Shown here piece after piece: positions 9,409-17,665 of a stretch of DNA of 17,720 nucleotides. The position numbers and the translations under genes were made by a program. Positions within the stretch are counted from its first letter, which is position 1. Every line of letters starts with the position of its first letter. The notes under the pieces were generated by a model. The model was not told where the DNA came from. It ran no database searches and worked only from the letters and a program-made list of their open reading frames with translations. Source of the stretch: Gemmatimonadota bacterium (GTDB lineage Bacteria; Gemmatimonadota; Gemmatimonadetes; Gemmatimonadales; Gemmatimonadaceae); NCBI GenBank assembly GCA_003222065.1, contig QHUV01000021.1, forward strand, positions 1 through 17,720, read 5' to 3'.

Positions 9409-9558
9409 TGAGGCCTCAGCGGTCAGCAATCAGCTCTGGGCCTTTTCGGTTCGCTGGCTCGTGTATCGCACCCGGTACAGCGAGCCCAGTTTCGAGAAGG
9501 CAGCCGCGAGATGGCAGCCTTGAGTCGAAAAGGTTGGGAATGAATGAGCGGGAGAGCC
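9409..9558 (+). repeat. long intergenic repeat, single half (copy 1)
   Basis: A ~150-bp unit carrying GAGCCCAGTTTCGAGAAGGC at 9482-9501 and running to GGGAGAGCCC just before the promoter at 9560. It is closely similar to the reverse complement of 16782-16917. Here only one half is present, between divergent genes. Confidence 0.75.
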
Positions 9559-9559
9559 C

Positions 9560-9565
9560 TATATT
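9560..9565 (+). promoter_or_regulatory. -10 element of a likely leaderless promoter
   Basis: TATATT ends 6 nt before the ATG at 9572, immediately beyond the inner end of repeat copy 1. No convincing -35 box at 17-18 nt; TTGGGA at 9534 gives a 20-nt spacer. Confidence 0.5.
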
Positions 9566-9571
9566 CGGATC

Positions 9572-11440
9572 ATGGACGCGTTGCGCTGGTTCGCGCTGGG
9601 AATGCTGCTATTTCCCTTCGCTCTGCATGGCCAATACTCACGCGAGCGTGTGTCGCTCGTTCTGCGTGGCGAAGAAGCCCTGCAGCGCCAGGAGGTAGGC
9701 GCCGCGATCGACGCGTTTCGTGCTGCCGCGCGCGATACCAGTGTCGCGCGTCGCGCGGCCGCCGAGCGAATGCTCGGTATCATCTCGTGGAGGTTCTATC
9801 ACGAGAACGGACGTGCGCGCGAGCACTTCGGCGCCGCCCTGGCGACGCAACACGATACCGCGGCGACGCTCGTCGAGCTGGCGCGACTGGCGATCTCGGA
9901 AGGACGCTATCGTCAGGCATTCACCTTCGCGGACCGTGCGCGTGCCGCGGCCGTCGACGACATCGCCCGCCGCGGCGCCGTTCTGCAAATGGCGCGTGCG
10001 GTCACGGAGGCGGCGCTCGCGGCGCGCGTCGATGACGCACCGAGCGCCGACCATGCCGACAGCGCTGCCGTCGCGTCCGTGGTGTCCGAGCTGTTGGCGC
10101 TCGTTAGGGAGACGCCGGGCCGCGGCGACGAGTCGCATCAACTCCTGCTCGCGGCGCTCATCGCCGGTGATGGCGCGGCCGCGACGTCCGGCGCCGATTC
10201 GTACTACCTCGTTGGCGTCGGCGACGCATCCATGCAGACCGCCATCCCGGCAACGATCGCTGAGCTGGACAAGCTTCTCCCGGCGTGGCACGGCGATCAC
10301 ACGCGGGCAACCGATCGCGCGCGCCTCGTCGCGGCACTCACACGCGCACGGTTGATCGATGCCGCCGCGCTCGTCGCCACGCCGGGCGCCGAGGTCATCG
10401 CCTACGCCGCGTACTGCCGGCGCATGGCGCGTACCGCCGAGGAGTATTATCGCCGCGCCCTCCTCGGCGAAGGCCGACAGACCGACTTGACACGCGGGTA
10501 CATCCACGCGTCGCACGATCTCTGGCCCCGCCTAACGTGGCCAGGGGCGACGCCGCGATACTATCCGGCGGCCGTCGACGCCGAGCTCGCGCGGCGGTTC
10601 GGCACCATTCTCCAGTTAGGCATCACCGGCGGCTACTACGACATGCACATGGCGCACGTCGTCGGCGCCGAGCGTCGCGTGATTTCGCAATATGGCAAGC
10701 GCGCCGCAGTCGACTTCGTCGTGATCGACGGTATCGTCACCAATGGCCTGCAGAGTTGGGCGTGGGACGACGCTGGTGGTCACGGTGGTTGGCAGCGCTC
10801 CGACACGATCGTGCAGGTTCGACCGATCTTCGTCGAGCACGCAATCAGTCTCTGGGTGAGCGCCGACACGGCGCGGCGAGAGCGCGAGGAAGGCAGCATT
10901 GCGTCGGATAGCGTGCTGGATTGGAATCTTGCTCAATCGGACTCGATCGCGTACTTGCCGGGTGTCGCCGCTCGACTGCGACGCGACGGCCGCCAAGCGC
11001 TGATGGACTCACTCAGGCGCGCCGGCGTTTCCGATCTGACGCTCGGCTCAGTCTTCGTGCGTGTCGCGTCGCGGTTGATGCGCGAGAGCTCGATCATCGC
11101 CCACGAAGGGCGTCACGCGATCGACGAAATGCTTAGGCCATCGCTCAGTCCCGAGGAGCGAGAGTTCCGCGCCAAGCTGTCCGAGATCGCGTTCGCCGAG
11201 CGCCCGAAGATCGTGATGTCGTCGATCGTGCACCCCAACATCGGCGATGCCACGCCGCACGGGCGCGCGAACGCGCGCGTCATGCTCGGGCTGATTCGCT
11301 GGATGCGCGCGCACGCGTCCGAGGTTCGTGGTCTGCTTGTCAACCGGCCAATGCTGCCCCAACTACCCCTTCTCAGCGACGCGCAGCTGCGAAGAGCATT
11401 TCGCTCGATGGATCCACTCGCACTTCAACCAGGGCGGTGA
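9572..11440 (+). CDS. secreted TPR-like protein with HEGRH putative metalloprotease motif
   Basis: This 622-residue protein has a signal peptide (about 1-21, ALHG-Q). The N-terminal ~270 residues are alpha-helical and TPR-like (RGEEALQRQEVGAAIDAFRAAARD; EHFGAALATQHDTAATLVELARLAISEG, each helix pair about 34 residues). The C-terminal half contains a conserved-looking core (LQLGITGGYYDMHMAHVVGAERR) and SSIIAHEGRHAIDEML. This carries an HExxH zinc motif (His511, Glu512, His515), with Glu538 in LSEIAF as a plausible third ligand 23 residues on, as in gluzincins. A secreted metallopeptidase is inferred; I do not recognise the family. The gene has a TATATT box 6 nt before the ATG and overlaps the amidase gene, suggesting translational coupling. 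Confidence 0.75.
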   Translation: MDALRWFALGMLLFPFALHGQYSRERVSLVLRGEEALQRQEVGAAIDAFRAAARDTSVARRAAAERMLGIISWRFYHENGRAREHFGAALATQHDTAATLVELARLAISEGRYRQAFTFADRARAAAVDDIARRGAVLQMARAVTEAALAARVDDAPSADHADSAAVASVVSELLALVRETPGRGDESHQLLLAALIAGDGAAATSGADSYYLVGVGDASMQTAIPATIAELDKLLPAWHGDHTRATDRARLVAALTRARLIDAAALVATPGAEVIAYAAYCRRMARTAEEYYRRALLGEGRQTDLTRGYIHASHDLWPRLTWPGATPRYYPAAVDAELARRFGTILQLGITGGYYDMHMAHVVGAERRVISQYGKRAAVDFVVIDGIVTNGLQSWAWDDAGGHGGWQRSDTIVQVRPIFVEHAISLWVSADTARREREEGSIASDSVLDWNLAQSDSIAYLPGVAARLRRDGRQALMDSLRRAGVSDLTLGSVFVRVASRLMRESSIIAHEGRHAIDEMLRPSLSPEEREFRAKLSEIAFAERPKIVMSSIVHPNIGDATPHGRANARVMLGLIRWMRAHASEVRGLLVNRPMLPQLPLLSDAQLRRAFRSMDPLALQPGR

Positions 11441-13854: not shown

Positions 13855-14285
13855 GACGCTACCCTCGCCATCGGATCCCGCGGCGTACGCATCCCCGCGC
13901 CGGAGCGCACGGTCAGCTCCGGTTTGCCGGACGCGTCGGGCGTCGCGTGGAGAACGTCATCGAGCGAGTTGAATGGAAGTCGGAACATCGGACGCGACTG
14001 CACCATCACGACTGCGAAGTTGAGTGCCGCGGCAAAGGGCTGCAGGACAGGAAGCGACAGCAGCTCGAACATGCGCCGCGCTTCCTCGTGGAACCACTTC
14101 GTCTCCGCCTTGAGTGCCTCGATCGGTGCGCGCCAGAGCTCCGGGGCGTCGTGATGCTTCACAGCCGGCGTGTGTCCCTTCTCCATGTTCTCACGCGACA
14201 GAATCGCGATGAGGGCCGGCGTCCCGAAGCGCCCGAAGAGGAACGATGTCATGCCGCGCACACCCATCCAGCCGAACGATGCCAA
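13851..14285 (-). CDS. C-terminal part of a frameshifted membrane protein
   Basis: This 144-residue open frame has a possible TTG start at 14285 or an internal ATG at 14267. It reads MGVRGMTSFLFGRFGTPALIAI, then a polar region (KHHDAPELWRAPIEALKAETKWFHEEARRMFELL) and an amphipathic tail. The frame stays open upstream into the preceding gene, reading PAASLAIGLASFGWMG, which continues that gene's last membrane helix. A single extra base at about 14300-14312 would explain the break: 13851-14946 spans 1096 nt, one more than a multiple of three. It is most simply the C-terminal third of one ~364-residue protein. The stop overlaps the ATG of the vWA lipoprotein. I recognise no family. Confidence 0.6.
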   Translation of the reverse strand: MASFGWMGVRGMTSFLFGRFGTPALIAILSRENMEKGHTPAVKHHDAPELWRAPIEALKAETKWFHEEARRMFELLSLPVLQPFAAALNFAVVMVQSRPMFRLPFNSLDDVLHATPDASGKPELTVRSGAGMRTPRDPMARVAS

Positions 14286-14946
14286 ACCAATCGCAAGCGA
14301 AGCTGCCGGCGACGAGCATGAAGAGGAAGATCCAGAGCATCGGCTGCATGACGCGCGGGCTCACTTCGGTGCCCGTTAGGCTGTCGAAGACCTCTTTGAG
14401 CGTCGGCGTCAACGTGAACGTGAAGATCGTCGCTTCGACCGCTGACCAGAGAATGAGGATCAGGAACGCGACCCATGGCATGCCGCCCGCCTCGAAATAG
14501 GCTCGCGACGAGTTCTGGATCAGGGTGAGCGGTGCCCTAACGAGGCCGATGATCAGACTCTTGATCATACGCAAGCCGAAGCGTAAGGCGCCGATGATCC
14601 AGCCCACGAACGCGATGAGAACGCGCACCAGGCCCGTGTAGAAGAACAGGATGCAGCGACCCGCGTCCCACCACGTCATGAGCAACAAGGTGAGGAAGCG
14701 GCCCCGTCCCGACCGGAAGGGTATCGTGTAGAGCGACGCGGCGGTGCTCCACGTACCGGCGGCGACGAGCACTATCGGCACTATCAGGAGGACCTCGCCG
14801 GCGATGAAACCGATCGTCTGGTCATGGCCGAAGGTCCATCGCGCCAGGAAGCCTTGCCATGCTGCCAGCCACCGAAACGGTCCGGTCAGCAGCAGGATCG
14901 CCGGCCGCCAATTGGCGGGAAAGAGATCCGCGAACGATTCGAACAT
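14191..14946 (-). CDS. polytopic membrane protein, N-terminal part
   Basis: This 251-residue open frame has about five or six hydrophobic segments: AILLLTGPFRWLAAW, GEVLLIVPIVLVAAGTW, a central stretch with LVRVLIAFVGWIIGAL, WVAFLILILWSAVEATIF and MLWIFLFMLVAG. I recognise no family. The last ~37 residues (WFGIVRLDGCARHDIVP...) are polar and look out of frame, while the overlapping +1 frame continues the hydrophobic pattern. The ATG at 14946 is preferred; the frame upstream to 15048 is Pro/Arg-rich and would translate the G tract. It is first in a minus-strand operon with the vWA lipoprotein, which suggests a membrane complex with an extracytoplasmic metal-binding partner. Confidence 0.65.
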   Translation of the reverse strand: MFESFADLFPANWRPAILLLTGPFRWLAAWQGFLARWTFGHDQTIGFIAGEVLLIVPIVLVAAGTWSTAASLYTIPFRSGRGRFLTLLLMTWWDAGRCILFFYTGLVRVLIAFVGWIIGALRFGLRMIKSLIIGLVRAPLTLIQNSSRAYFEAGGMPWVAFLILILWSAVEATIFTFTLTPTLKEVFDSLTGTEVSPRVMQPMLWIFLFMLVAGSFACDWFGIVRLDGCARHDIVPLRALRDAGPHRDSVA

Positions 14947-14996
14947 TGAGTCGCCCTCGGGTGGGGTTGAGGTAGGCGAGAAACAGCTCAAGCGTC

Positions 14997-15006
14997 GGGG
15001 GGGGGG
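14997..15006. repeat. ten-G homopolymer tract
   Basis: A run of ten G on the + strand, followed by AGGG. It lies 50-60 nt upstream of the minus-strand membrane-protein ATG, in its likely promoter region. A tract like this is prone to slippage in vivo and to sequencing error. Confidence 0.7.
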
Positions 15007-15084
15007 AGGGAACAGCAGTGACGCTTTGCTCTGAGCCTGACGAATCACATCGGGCCAGCGAAACGCGGCAATTTGCGGGTGTGC

Positions 15085-15259
15085 CGCGTGTCACCTCAGG
15101 GCGACACGCGCGTCAGGGCCGACGAGTTGGCCGGAGCATCGGGATGACGCATTCGCGCTGGATCACTTGATCGGTGGCGAGCGTGAACACCGGCGCGATG
15201 AACGTCACCTGACCGCGAATGCTGAATCCCGAGGCTGCGGCTTGACTAATCTCCCTCAC
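15085..15259 (-). other. possible 48-codon gene remnant with 3' hairpin
   Basis: A minus-strand frame from a GTG at 15259 to a stop at 15113 reads GFSIRGQVTFIAPVFTLATD near its middle, which looks protein-like. It is followed by an 8-bp hairpin (CGCGTGTC 15085-15092, GACACGCG 15103-15110). It overlaps the aromatic promoter in antisense. It may be a remnant or chance; no family is recognised. The rest of the 331-nt gap 14947-15277 holds the G tract and the promoter at 15242-15271. Confidence 0.2.
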
Positions 15260-15271
15260 GGATGCTATCGT
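15242..15271 (+). promoter_or_regulatory. promoter of the aromatic attenuator operon
   Basis: TTGACT (15242-15247), an 18-nt spacer and TATCGT (15266-15271). The leader-peptide ATG follows 6 nt later, so transcription is predicted to begin at or next to the ATG. This is the best complete promoter in the window. Confidence 0.7.
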
Positions 15272-15277
15272 CTCCCC

Positions 15278-15361
15278 ATGTCGATCGCCCGCGTGTCGTA
15301 CTACTCCTATTACTTTGCGACCCTCGTCACGGGCCGAAGCTGGAGGCGTGCGCACGACTGA
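15278..15361 (+). CDS. tyrosine-rich attenuator leader peptide
   Basis: This 27-residue peptide starts with ATG and contains SYYSYYF at residues 7-13 (four Tyr and one Phe in seven codons, 15296-15316), with a Trp at 22. It lies between a strong promoter and an intrinsic terminator, ahead of DAHP synthase and chorismate mutase. This is the classical layout of ribosome-mediated attenuation. Scarce charged tRNA-Tyr (or Phe) would stall the ribosome on the codon cluster, leaving 15330-15346 free to form the antiterminator. With enough Tyr the ribosome covers that segment up to the stop codon and the terminator forms. There is no Shine-Dalgarno; the start appears leaderless. The peptide itself probably has no other function. 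Confidence 0.8.
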   Translation: MSIARVSYYSYYFATLVTGRSWRRAHD

Positions 15362-15400
15362 CGTCGTCGATTGAGCACTCACGAAACTTCCAGCGGCCCG
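15330..15400 (+). promoter_or_regulatory. antiterminator of the tyrosine attenuator
   Basis: CGGGCCG (15330-15336) pairs perfectly with CGGCCCG (15394-15400). CTGGAGG (15340-15346) pairs with CTTCCAG (15387-15393) with one G-U. A 3-nt bulge (AAG) separates the two helices. The 3' strand of this fold takes up most of the terminator's left arm, so the two structures exclude each other. The 5' strand begins 14 nt after the Phe codon. Confidence 0.7.
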
Positions 15401-15421
15401 CCTTGCGGGTCGCTTTTTTTT
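15392..15421 (+). terminator. attenuator intrinsic terminator
   Basis: AGCGGCCCGC (15392-15401) and GCGGGTCGCT (15405-15414) form a 10-bp stem with one G-U pair and a CTT loop. It is followed by eight T (15414-15421). It lies 25 nt before the DAHP synthase start and after the leader-peptide stop. Confidence 0.85.
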
Positions 15422-15446
15422 CTGGCCCCTCAGAGCCCCTCGTCTC

Positions 15447-16340
15447 TTGATCATCATTACTCGTGCCTCGATTACCGACGCCGAGCTCGACGCCATTCGC
15501 GAACGCATCGAGCAGCGCGGCATGCGCACCCACCTCTCGCGCGGCGTCGAGCGCACGATCATCGGCTGCATCGGCGACGAATCCCTCCTCGCCGAACTGC
15601 CGCTGCGCTCGATGCCCGGCGTCGAGGACGTCGTGCCGGTGCTCAAGCCGTACAAGCTCGCGTCGCGCGAGTTCGCGGCCGCGCCGTCGGTGGTGCGCGT
15701 CGGCGACGATCCTTCGCGGCCGGGACGCGTTGCCGCCTTTGGCGGGCCGGCAATCGCCATTATCGCCGGCCCATGCTCAGTGGAAGGGCCGGACATGCTG
15801 CGTGAGACCGCGGAGGCGGTGCGTGACGCCGGCGGCGTCATGCTCCGTGGCGGCGCCTTCAAGCCCCGCACGTCACCCTACGCCTTCCAGGGACTCGGCG
15901 CCACCGCGCTCAAGATGCTGGCTGACGTTAGGCGAACGACCGGGATGCCCGTCGTCACCGAGGTCATGGATCCGCGGCAGATCGACGACGTCGCCGAGCA
16001 TGCGGACATGCTCCAGGTCGGCGCGCGCAACATGCAAAACTTCTCATTGCTCTCCGAGCTCGGCCGCGTCAAACGTCCGGTGCTCCTCAAGCGCGGCCTG
16101 TCGGCGACAATTAAGGAACTGCTCATGGCCGCGGAGTACATCATGGCGCAGGGGAATCGTGACGTCGTGCTCTGCGAGCGCGGGATTCGCACCTTCGAGG
16201 TCGCGACACGCAACACCCTCGACGTCGCCGCGCTCGACGGCTTTCGGGAGTTGATGCGCCGCCTCGCTCCCTTCGCCGCGGCGGCTGGGCGTTCGTTAGG
16301 CGCGTCGGCCGACGGCGCGCGGGCTGGAGCCGCCGCGTGA
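15447..16340 (+). CDS. aroF: DAHP synthase (type I-beta) lacking C-terminal catalytic segment
   Basis: The family condenses PEP and erythrose 4-phosphate, the first step of the shikimate pathway. This 297-residue protein has an N-terminal ferredoxin-like regulatory domain (about 1-75) as in Thermotoga-type enzymes. The barrel follows with AGPCSVE (107-113, metal ligand Cys110), [14 protein letters not shown] (138-151), GARNMQNF (192-199), [10 protein letters not shown] and CERGIRTFE. After RNTLDVAAL it jumps directly to [10 protein letters not shown], the usual C-terminal helix. About 60 residues are missing, including the DPSH, VEVHP and SDG motifs that supply three of the four metal ligands (His, Glu, Asp). 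As written the enzyme should be inactive. A direct repeat CTCGACG (in 16218-16242) flanks the junction. TTG start; regulated by the upstream attenuator. Confidence 0.88.
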
Positions 16341-16642
16341 CCACCGATCCCTCTCCGTCAGCCCGCGACGCCGCGCTCGACACCCTCGGCCGATACCGTC
16401 AGCAGATCGAGCAGCTCGACCGTGACCTCGTATCGCTGCTCGCGAAGCGTGTCGCGTTGAGCAAGGAGATCGGCGCCATGAAGCGCGTCGCCGGCCTGCC
16501 GACGCTCGATCCCGCGCGCGAGGCCGAGGTCATCCGCCGCGCCGCCGCGTTGGCCCGCGACGCAAGTCTCAACGACGAAAAGGTCCGGGACATCTTTTGG
16601 CATGTCATCGGGCTGTCGCGCGCAGTCCAGGTCGACGAATAG
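16337..16642 (+). CDS. chorismate mutase, AroQ type
   Basis: Converts chorismate to prephenate, the branch point to Phe and Tyr. The 101 residues are a single all-helical AroQ domain. [27 protein letters not shown] carries the long first helix with the catalytic Arg/Lys pattern, followed by [16 protein letters not shown] and the last helix [12 protein letters not shown]. The GTG start overlaps the aroF stop (GTGA), with GGAG 7 nt upstream, so the two are translated from one mRNA under the Tyr-rich leader. In several bacteria DAHP synthase and AroQ mutase are fused or form a complex for feedback control; a complex here is possible but inferred. Confidence 0.9.
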
Positions 16643-16652
16643 ACTGCTGAGC

Positions 16653-16917
16653 TGAGATGTCAGCTCCCGCTTTGTCGATGCACCGGCGCACGCATCACAC
16701 CCACGAAAGTGAGCCCAGTTTCGAGAAGGCAGCAACGAGCCGCGAGCCTTGAGACTAAAAGGTCAGGAATTAGAAATGGGGCTCTCCCGCGCAGTCATTC
16801 CCAACCCTTTCGACTCAAGCTGCCATCTCGCGGCTGCCTTCTCGAAACTGGGCTCGCCGTACCGGGTGAGATGCTGATGAGCCGCATCGAAAGAGCCGGA
16901 GCTGACTTCTGAGGTTC
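16653..16917. repeat. long inverted-repeat element (copy 2, both halves)
   Basis: A 23-bp perfect inverted pair at 16711-16733 and 16833-16855 (GAGCCCAGTTTCGAGAAGGC... and its complement) lies within a ~260-bp imperfect palindrome. Outer flanks also match each other (GTCAGCTCC... against ...GGAGCTGAC). It fills the gap between convergent chorismate mutase and the DUF1569 gene and abuts the latter's stop codon. Confidence 0.8.
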
Positions 16918-17424: not shown

Positions 17425-17665
17425 CGACGGACGGCACTTCCGTCAACTCGCTCATCGACATCTCAACCGTGACAGCGAGCCCAGTTTCGAGCCGGTAGGC
17501 GCGAGCGACGAGCCGTGAGTATGAAGGGTTAGGTGTGAGACAGACCCCACCTCATACACAACCCTTCGAACTCAAAAGCTCACCGCTCGCTGCTGCCTTC
17601 TCGAAACTGGGCTCACCGTCGCGGGTGAGATGCGAGCCGGCGAATCGAAGGGGAGAGATCTGAGC
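17425..17665. repeat. long inverted-repeat element (copy 3, both halves)
   Basis: GAGCCCAGTTTCGA at 17477-17490 is matched by its inverse inside 17592-17614, which again has the full 23-bp form. The centre contains AAGGGTTAGGTGTGAGA and TCATACACAACCCTT. The left half is more decayed than in copy 2. The gap 17359-17665 holds nothing else I can identify. Confidence 0.72.

Follow-up and report, generated by a model that had tools for sequence, protein, structure and literature searches.

The window, by which we mean the whole stretch of 17,720 nucleotides analysed here, stems from a genome in 736 contigs that is 82% complete. It carries a DAHP synthase gene, aroF, and an overlapping chorismate mutase gene, aroQ, and ahead of aroF a promoter-like site, a short open reading frame with a run of aromatic codons and two overlapping RNA helices (Table 1). 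On re-reading the window we found the promoter, the 27-codon leader, the antiterminator, the terminator and the two genes exactly where the sequence-only reading had placed them. A simple scan of positions 15000–15600 yields one single promoter-like site (15242–15271; shuffle mean 0.2) and one single terminator-like site (15392–15421; shuffle mean 0.4). The spacer between the −10 box and the ATG reads CTCCCC, a Shine–Dalgarno sequence is absent before the leader start, and the sensor run holds four Tyr codons and one Phe codon.

Table 1. Features of the aroF–aroQ leader region and the genes behind it (window coordinates)
Feature	Position	Strand	Basis
Sigma-70 type promoter, TTGACT-N18-TATCGT	15242–15271 (TTGACT 15242–15247, TATCGT 15266–15271)	+	hexamers; same layout in orthologues
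Leader ORF, 27 codons and stop, MSIARVSYYSYYFATLVTGRSWRRAHD	15278–15361	+	ATG 6 nt past the −10 box
Sensor codons Tyr Tyr Ser Tyr Tyr Phe (run SYYSYYF)	15299–15316	+	translation of leader ORF
Putative long 1:2 hairpin, 5′ arm, inside the ORF, overlapping the first sensor codons	15292–15307	+	fold and permutation with 69 orthologues
Inner region 1, GCGACCC, directly after the last aromatic codon; possible pairing with region 2	15317–15323	+	folding energy; one clade
Region 2, antiterminator 5′ arm, CGGGCCG and CTGGAGG	15330–15346	+	duplex score, covariation
Putative long 1:2 hairpin, 3′ arm, conserved GGAGNCGTACGC-like segment	15342–15353	+	fold and permutation with 69 orthologues
Region 3, antiterminator 3′ arm, CTTCCAGCGGCCCG	15387–15400	+	overlaps terminator 5′ arm
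Intrinsic terminator, 10 pairs, loop of 3, then 8 T	15392–15401 with 15405–15414, T run to 15421	+	fold, scan, covariation
aroF, encoding a DAHP synthase that carries a ferredoxin-like domain; start codon TTG	15447–16340	+	Pfam, NCBIfam
aroQ, type II chorismate mutase, overlaps aroF stop	16337–16642	+	Pfam, NCBIfam

Leaders of orthologous aroF genes

The 24 nearest named loci (L034–L056 and L061) all belong to Gemmatimonadota, 12 of them labelled Gemmatimonadaceae, with 64–78% identity over the best segment; the next-nearest named loci have 58% identity and come from other phyla. Orthologous upstream regions were taken from the top of 99 relatives (L004–L025 and G091:C56), from these 24 loci and from 179 genomes of the family (matches with E ≤ 1e-85). 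After removal of 2 + 16 duplicates 80 distinct regions remained, of which 79 are informative as L012 is cut at a contig end.

The comparison of aroF upstream regions proposed in the sequence-only reading confirmed that the aromatic codons are conserved: a short leader ORF with such codons is found in 75 of the 79 informative regions, all from Gemmatimonadota. Our script, whose threshold was merely two F/Y/W among the first 24 residues, recognised leader and terminator together in 74 of the 79; L159 has the leader, and its hairpin was missed by the terminator filter. A stricter setting, which required at least four F/Y/W in 10 codons, is passed by 68 of 80 regions. Within the 79 regions the leader is absent from L022, L039 and L042 and degenerate in L045. 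In G023, for example, the orthologous leader (L016) reads MTRHASAITYACRFYYPPTRMGPGEFGMRS. In six of the orthologue genomes the second DAHP synthase paralogue was also inspected and is never preceded by such a leader (0/6). In 50 of the 64 orthologue loci tried, the fetched flanks contain a tblastn match to the chorismate mutase of the window.

Residues 2–19 of 72 distinct orthologous leaders comprise 237 Tyr, 107 Phe and 17 Trp. This mixture of Tyr, Phe and some Trp does not support the Tyr-specific attenuator that had been proposed at aroF; the aroF leader would sense aromatic amino acids and not Tyr alone. Mixed aromatic sensing suits an enzyme that is common to all three pathways. The leaders are also richer in codons which the aroF genes use little: the Tyr codon TAT makes up 101/245 in leaders vs 3/76 in aroF genes and the Phe codon TTT 72/111 vs 10/87, the gene counts being those of 18 named loci. 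Three aroF leaders of family f2 (L023, L024, and L025) carry Trp codons in the runs YTWYWY, YSWYWY, and YYFAFWF and look as if they sense all three aromatic amino acids.

The start of the leader lies at a nearly fixed distance from the promoter. In 74 leaders the spacer between the −10 box and the ATG is 5–12 nt long, and in 57 of them 6–7 nt. When the spacer was left free between 0 and 39 nt, all 65 leaders with a promoter score of at least 10 fell within 5–12 nt (45 at 6–7 nt), and among the 68 leaders found in this way the spacer never exceeded 12 nt. As sigma-70 transcription starts ∼7 nt past the −10 box, the AUG would lie at or beside the 5′ end of the transcript, and given the cluster at 6–7 nt the leader ORF is very probably translated from a leaderless mRNA, its 5′ end being inferred from promoter spacing. 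In addition, tetramers resembling a Shine–Dalgarno sequence precede 5 of the 68 starts vs 14% of background windows, i.e. they are rarer than in the background. Both observations lend indirect backing to the leaderless start that had been suggested for the window. The leader could instead be translated from a longer 5′ UTR with a start site further upstream and no Shine–Dalgarno sequence, which would make the element an ordinary attenuator. The promoters are recognised here from their hexamers only, which is in favor of this alternative, but the narrow spacing, found even when much longer spacers were allowed, and the scarcity of Shine–Dalgarno-like tetramers speak against it, and we consider it improbable.

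Alternative helices and the proposed mechanism

In the window the terminator folds with −18.4 kcal/mol vs −8.4 kcal/mol for shuffles (z −4.4; 0/200 as good). The antiterminator duplex between 15329–15347 and ∼15386–15401 reaches −26.6 kcal/mol, which is matched by 0/200 base shuffles of the leader; in the first set of leaders the 2:3 duplex of 12 out of 39 does not beat 95% of the base shuffles. Covariation was analysed in an anchored set of 72 regions (L055 and L139, having no anchor pair, were left out) and in a second alignment made with MAFFT from 35 sequences picked from 69 usable ones. In the anchored set 85.2% of the cells of the 2:3 helix (52 distinct rows) are paired vs a maximum of 78.7% over 1000 permutations of whole arms, which like all our permutation tests on helices ignore the tree, and two-sided changes number 45 vs at most 28. 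For the 3:4 helix (40 distinct rows) 92.7% are paired vs 79.7% in the best permutation, with 69 vs 33 two-sided changes. The 35 rows of the MAFFT alignment give 85.1% paired for 2:3 vs 80.5% for shuffles (0/500) and 89.8% with 45 two-sided cells for 3:4 (0/500 shuffles). Sliding the arms by 1–3 columns drops the pairing to 31.8–48.9% (at most 42% for 2:3). For the 2:3 helix of this alignment two weaker measures out of five, namely both-side changes and further pair types, are not above shuffles (116 and 221 of 500). The antiterminator and the terminator, which had been described as mutually exclusive, show compensatory changes in both stems.

The support for the putative 1:2 fold further upstream is purely comparative. 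In the window alone neither the fold of the whole leader ORF (z −0.29; 67/200 shuffles as good) nor the inner 1:2 hairpin (z +0.94; 167/200 as good) beats chance. A putative long 1:2 pairing, analysed in 69 sequences, would join the ORF's 5′ half to a conserved GGAGNCGTACGCG-like stretch ahead of its stop codon. Its energy is −21.9 for the own partners vs −20.3 for permuted partners (best permutation −21.4; 0/300) and vs −19.1 for codon-shuffled ORFs (best shuffle −20.3). The inner hairpin would form between the GGG of region 2 and a short stretch of CCC type that directly follows the last aromatic codon. Here 67 distinct segments give −10.46 vs −9.25 with permuted partners (0/300 as low); the left–right pair count of 6.79 does not beat the best permutation (6.94), and column-wise 57.3% are paired in the 35 rows, the same as in shuffles. 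One clade of 17 rows with GCATGGG or a like sequence has the three outer 1:2 pairs in 16, 15, and 14 of 17, with swaps between T-A and C-G; here a slide by one leaves 3 or 5 of 51 vs 45 pairs and a slide by two 28 or 24. The long pairing seems clearer than the inner hairpin; in it the ORF itself would serve as 5′ arm, which is also how classical attenuators are built. We had also considered the conserved GGAGNCGTACGCG as a pause sequence for RNA polymerase and have dropped this idea, the 3′ arm of the long 1:2 pairing being the simpler account.

The position of the sensor codons relative to these helices fits as well: in 35 of 72 leaders the start of the last aromatic codon lies 17 nt 5′ of the region-2 GGG, and in all 72 it lies 10–23 nt 5′ of it. 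A stalled ribosome extends over the RNA downstream of its codon, and with this spacing it would therefore cover region 1 and leave region 2 free.

We suggest, with a probability of about 0.9, that the region is a classical ribosome-mediated transcription attenuator which controls aroF–aroQ and whose leader peptide is made from a leaderless mRNA. This agrees with the earlier reading of the window and is strongly backed by the orthologue comparison. Sequence and comparison show a leader with its codons, a promoter at fitting distance and two helices that exclude each other, all of them kept in orthologues, and from these we infer the start site, the stalling, the read-through and the response to amino acids as follows. 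Transcription would start at or within ∼2 bases of the AUG at 15278, and the first ribosome would load on the 5′ end. When charged tRNA-Tyr and tRNA-Phe are ample, the ribosome would read through, the 1:2 hairpin would hold region 2 and the terminator would form. Under a shortage of aromatic aminoacyl-tRNA it would stall at the YY.YYF run and cover the 5′ arm and region 1, so that region 2 could pair with region 3, the terminator would be blocked and aroF–aroQ would be transcribed.

A different type of control would be arrest by the nascent peptide, as in TnaC or SecM, or a leader RNA that binds a ligand, such as a T-box or a riboswitch; neither depends on the supply of charged tRNA codon by codon. 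A GR.WRR-like C-terminal part is indeed common to many leaders, and in a group of nine sequences conservation is lowest at the third codon position, both of which speak for such control. However, the leader peptides differ widely, and region 2 is found in all three frames (57, 12, and 3 of 72, with a doubt of one base at longer G runs). Past region 2 conservation is equal at all three codon positions (0.82, 0.81, and 0.82 bits) in the largest group without gaps, of 22 sequences, and in a group of 12 sequences the third position is even the most conserved. On this evidence from frame and codon positions we judge peptide arrest unlikely. The sensor residues moreover vary with the downstream gene (see below), which also speaks against this type of control. 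As to a ligand-binding RNA, no Rfam family reaches its cut-off: none of the amino acid operon leaders attains its gathering score on the window, Leu_leader having 20.6 of 50 bits at 15257–15418, and the T-box covariance model has no match in the window. Taken together we regard arrest or ligand binding as very improbable. That the terminator does no more than close a short transcript, with an aromatic run due to chance, for which the GC-rich sequence and the unremarkable 1:2 fold of the window alone might be cited, is hardly credible, because 75 of 79 orthologous regions keep the leader, His, Phe, Tyr, and Trp versions stand ahead of matching genes, and the long upstream ORF (14191–15048, no family match in Pfam or NCBIfam) is on the opposite strand.

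Similar elements before other amino acid genes

A covariance model built on 35 aroF leaders and run on 60 relatives gave 57 matches at E ≤ 1e-3. They lie ahead of aroF orthologues (12), other DAHP synthases (6), phenylalanine hydroxylase (6), hisG (14), prephenate dehydratase (1), prephenate dehydrogenase (1), and chorismate mutase (1, with a weak promoter); three have Cys-bearing leaders, 12 are bare terminators without a leader and one (G079:C1) is unread. Three of the hisG matches were assigned through L201, L202, and L206, the leader of L206 having masked bases, and two of the bare terminators (G016:C44:74461 and G029:C324) were judged by their place, without reading. Matches without a leader score at most 37 bits and those at hisG at most 44 bits, while aroF and phenylalanine hydroxylase reach up to 89 bits. 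Judged by these scores, common descent of the aroF and phenylalanine hydroxylase elements appears firm, and common descent with the hisG elements is only suggestive.

The best match of all, with 89 bits, is ahead of phenylalanine 4-monooxygenase and has the leader MNRAPRSYSYRYYYVPRATGRERRRVRD. Ten hydroxylase leaders together contain 37 Tyr, 4 Phe, and 1 Trp, which differs from the aroF mixture with p = 0.0026 in Fisher's test, a value that is generous because the leaders are related to each other. Only 7 of the 26 hydroxylase loci scanned have a Tyr leader. The residue counts given for aroF, the hydroxylase and the other genes leave out L326, L209, L277, L198, and L195; L326 is a hydroxylase by Pfam and has a GYRYSY leader, yet it lacks the sequence motif used as a check.

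The leaders before other genes change their codons. In two prephenate dehydratase leaders (L270 and L340) Phe prevails, with 10 Phe to 1 Tyr; L198, the third of them, combines 4 Tyr with 3 Phe in residues 2–19 and goes against the rule that the codons follow the product. L195 has the leader WFFGYF ahead of a frame with matches to both prephenate dehydratase and DAHP synthase. The prephenate dehydrogenase leader L272 has 3 Tyr, and in other DAHP synthase clades six leaders show a mixture of 17 Tyr, 19 Phe, and 5 Trp. Before hisG 18 leaders contain 107 His. A model-free scan finds His-rich leaderless ORFs before 9 of 12 hisG loci, the sole other residue coming from one R-rich frame. The same scan gave Trp-rich leaderless leaders at 2 of 20 trpE loci, both on minus strands: a SYWWWP leader directly 5′ of trpE (L187) and a LWWRW leader directly 5′ of a DAHP synthase gene adjoining trpE (L188). 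No F/Y/W-rich leader was found at 19 pheS loci, and none that convinces at nine ilvB loci, where L216 has a V-rich frame with a weak promoter.

Outside aroF and hisG, with spacers of 0–39 nt allowed, 15 of 17 further leaders have a spacer of 6–10 nt, the others being L337 (13 nt) and L280 (30 nt). In 14 loci of other genes no Rfam family reached its cut-off. In a sample of the phylum the model matches at E ≤ 1e-4 in 46 of 121 genomes, 9 of them from other families of the class; one match was read in each of three of these nine genomes, and the three lie before aroF, a hydroxylase and prephenate dehydratase.

His-rich leaderless leaders with a terminator-like hairpin stand before hisG in L201–L203, L205, L207–L212, L268, L277–L279, L281, L284–L286, L288, L292, and L295 (Gemmatimonadota); the His leader of L209 is ahead of another frame of the his operon, by eye hisI and not hisG. 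The Cys-bearing leaders are L282 (minus strand), L296, and L299, with CCC before a gene that by eye resembles sulfite/nitrite reductases and CAC before a HAD-IB phosphatase-like gene.

The codons of the putative sensors thus mostly follow the end product of the enzyme behind them, one exception being a mixed prephenate dehydratase leader. We see an even chance that a single ancestral leaderless attenuator RNA of Gemmatimonadota was copied before many amino acid operons and re-coded, the frame CACGGGCCG, GGAGNCGTACGCG, GGCCCGTG..CACGGGCC being kept. The codons would then be His at hisG, Tyr at phenylalanine hydroxylase and prephenate dehydrogenase, Phe at prephenate dehydratase, mixed aromatic at DAHP synthase, Trp at trpE and the DAHP synthase beside it, and perhaps Cys at the sulfite-reductase-like gene. 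If true, this would be a regulatory module with exchangeable codons, including a Tyr-sensing control of the hydroxylase that converts Phe to Tyr. A shared RNA frame with swapped codons is what these leaders suggest, and the codons could be read as a label of the end product; the Tyr codons would mark phenylalanine hydroxylase as a tyrosine-making enzyme.

Known attenuators and further observations

The AroR attenuator at aroF of Corynebacterium glutamicum, reportedly leaderless according to Neshat et al. in 2014, resembles the present case as an aromatic-codon leader peptide ahead of a DAHP synthase gene. It is from a different phylum, and we liken the two by their way of working without claiming common descent. 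We know of no re-coded set of leaders in C. glutamicum. The AroR leader peptide has the aromatic residues F-Y-F, and transcription is increased under Phe limitation (PMC4046766; PMC11802643), while Tyr supply has no effect according to PMC11802643. In addition, ilvBNC of C. glutamicum has an attenuator ORF without ribosome binding site (Morbach et al. 2000, as quoted in PMC4046766), and poly-Cys leaderless attenuator ORFs are reported for mycobacteria (Canestrari et al. 2020, as quoted in PMC13236596; Shell et al. 2015, PMC4633059), where PMC13236596 speaks of translation attenuation for the Cys genes of M. smegmatis. These ORFs lack a ribosome binding site like the leaders studied here but relate to other amino acids.

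The trp, pheA, and pheST attenuators of Escherichia coli work with stall codons and 1:2, 2:3, and 3:4 helices, and their leaders are translated with a Shine–Dalgarno sequence. To our knowledge these attenuators have no RNA frame in common between operons. The stall codons, the 2:3 and 3:4 helices and the type of genes behind (Trp, Phe, or tRNA synthetase) are as in the present elements, and so would be the 1:2 hairpin; in contrast, the E. coli leaders are led by a Shine–Dalgarno sequence and sense Phe or Trp only. The E. coli attenuators are treated in PMC11802643. A comparative survey of Actinobacteria likewise predicted terminators and leader peptides ahead of amino acid genes (PMC1262725), but unlike here it observed no conservation of RNA structure in the Phe, Tyr, or His operons of Actinobacteria (PMC1262725).

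The suggestion that the element may be undescribed is hence to be narrowed: an F-Y-F attenuator at aroF is known from C. glutamicum and attenuator ORFs without ribosome binding site from there and from mycobacteria, and for Gemmatimonadota none was found in the literature searched. A search with names of Gemmatimonads together with attenuation, leader peptide or leaderless returned no title on attenuation in this phylum, subscription journals being largely outside this search; on leader-peptide attenuation of phenylalanine hydroxylase genes the review PMC11802643 was the only result. The new part is the breadth of similar elements before other amino acid genes. Leaderless ribosome-mediated attenuation would extend to a phylum without a report in the literature searched. 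The leaders also form a natural series for asking how a 5′-terminal AUG loads ribosomes early enough for control of a terminator ∼110 nt downstream.

In relatives from other phyla (L057, L058, L063, L071, L072, L092, and L069) we noted by eye that a hairpin and repeats of TAGGATGG/TAGGACGG-like motifs precede the aroF-like gene, and in L069 a T-box-like stretch; other lineages may therefore control this gene by other RNA devices.

In the window itself AroF lacks, in frame after position 263, 61 residues that are present in four orthologues. The absent stretch holds DPSH and EVHP..ALSDG in these orthologues, which we take to be metal-ligand motifs. The window aroF is thus either broken or misassembled, the attenuator itself being intact, and the switch may here guard a dead or misassembled gene. 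An amidase gene at 11437–12888 matches one model with its residues 51–218 (model positions 12–182) and another with residues 217–482 (positions 264–524), so that ∼80 positions of the family model seem to be missing; two such gaps within a single window would be in keeping with an effect of the assembly. Finally, a sequence around GAGCCCAGTTTCGAGAAGGCAGC recurs as an imperfect repeat and inverted repeat at 9440–9562, 16669–16882, and 17435–17637 with arms that are 80–96% complementary, and looks like a REP- or MITE-like element.
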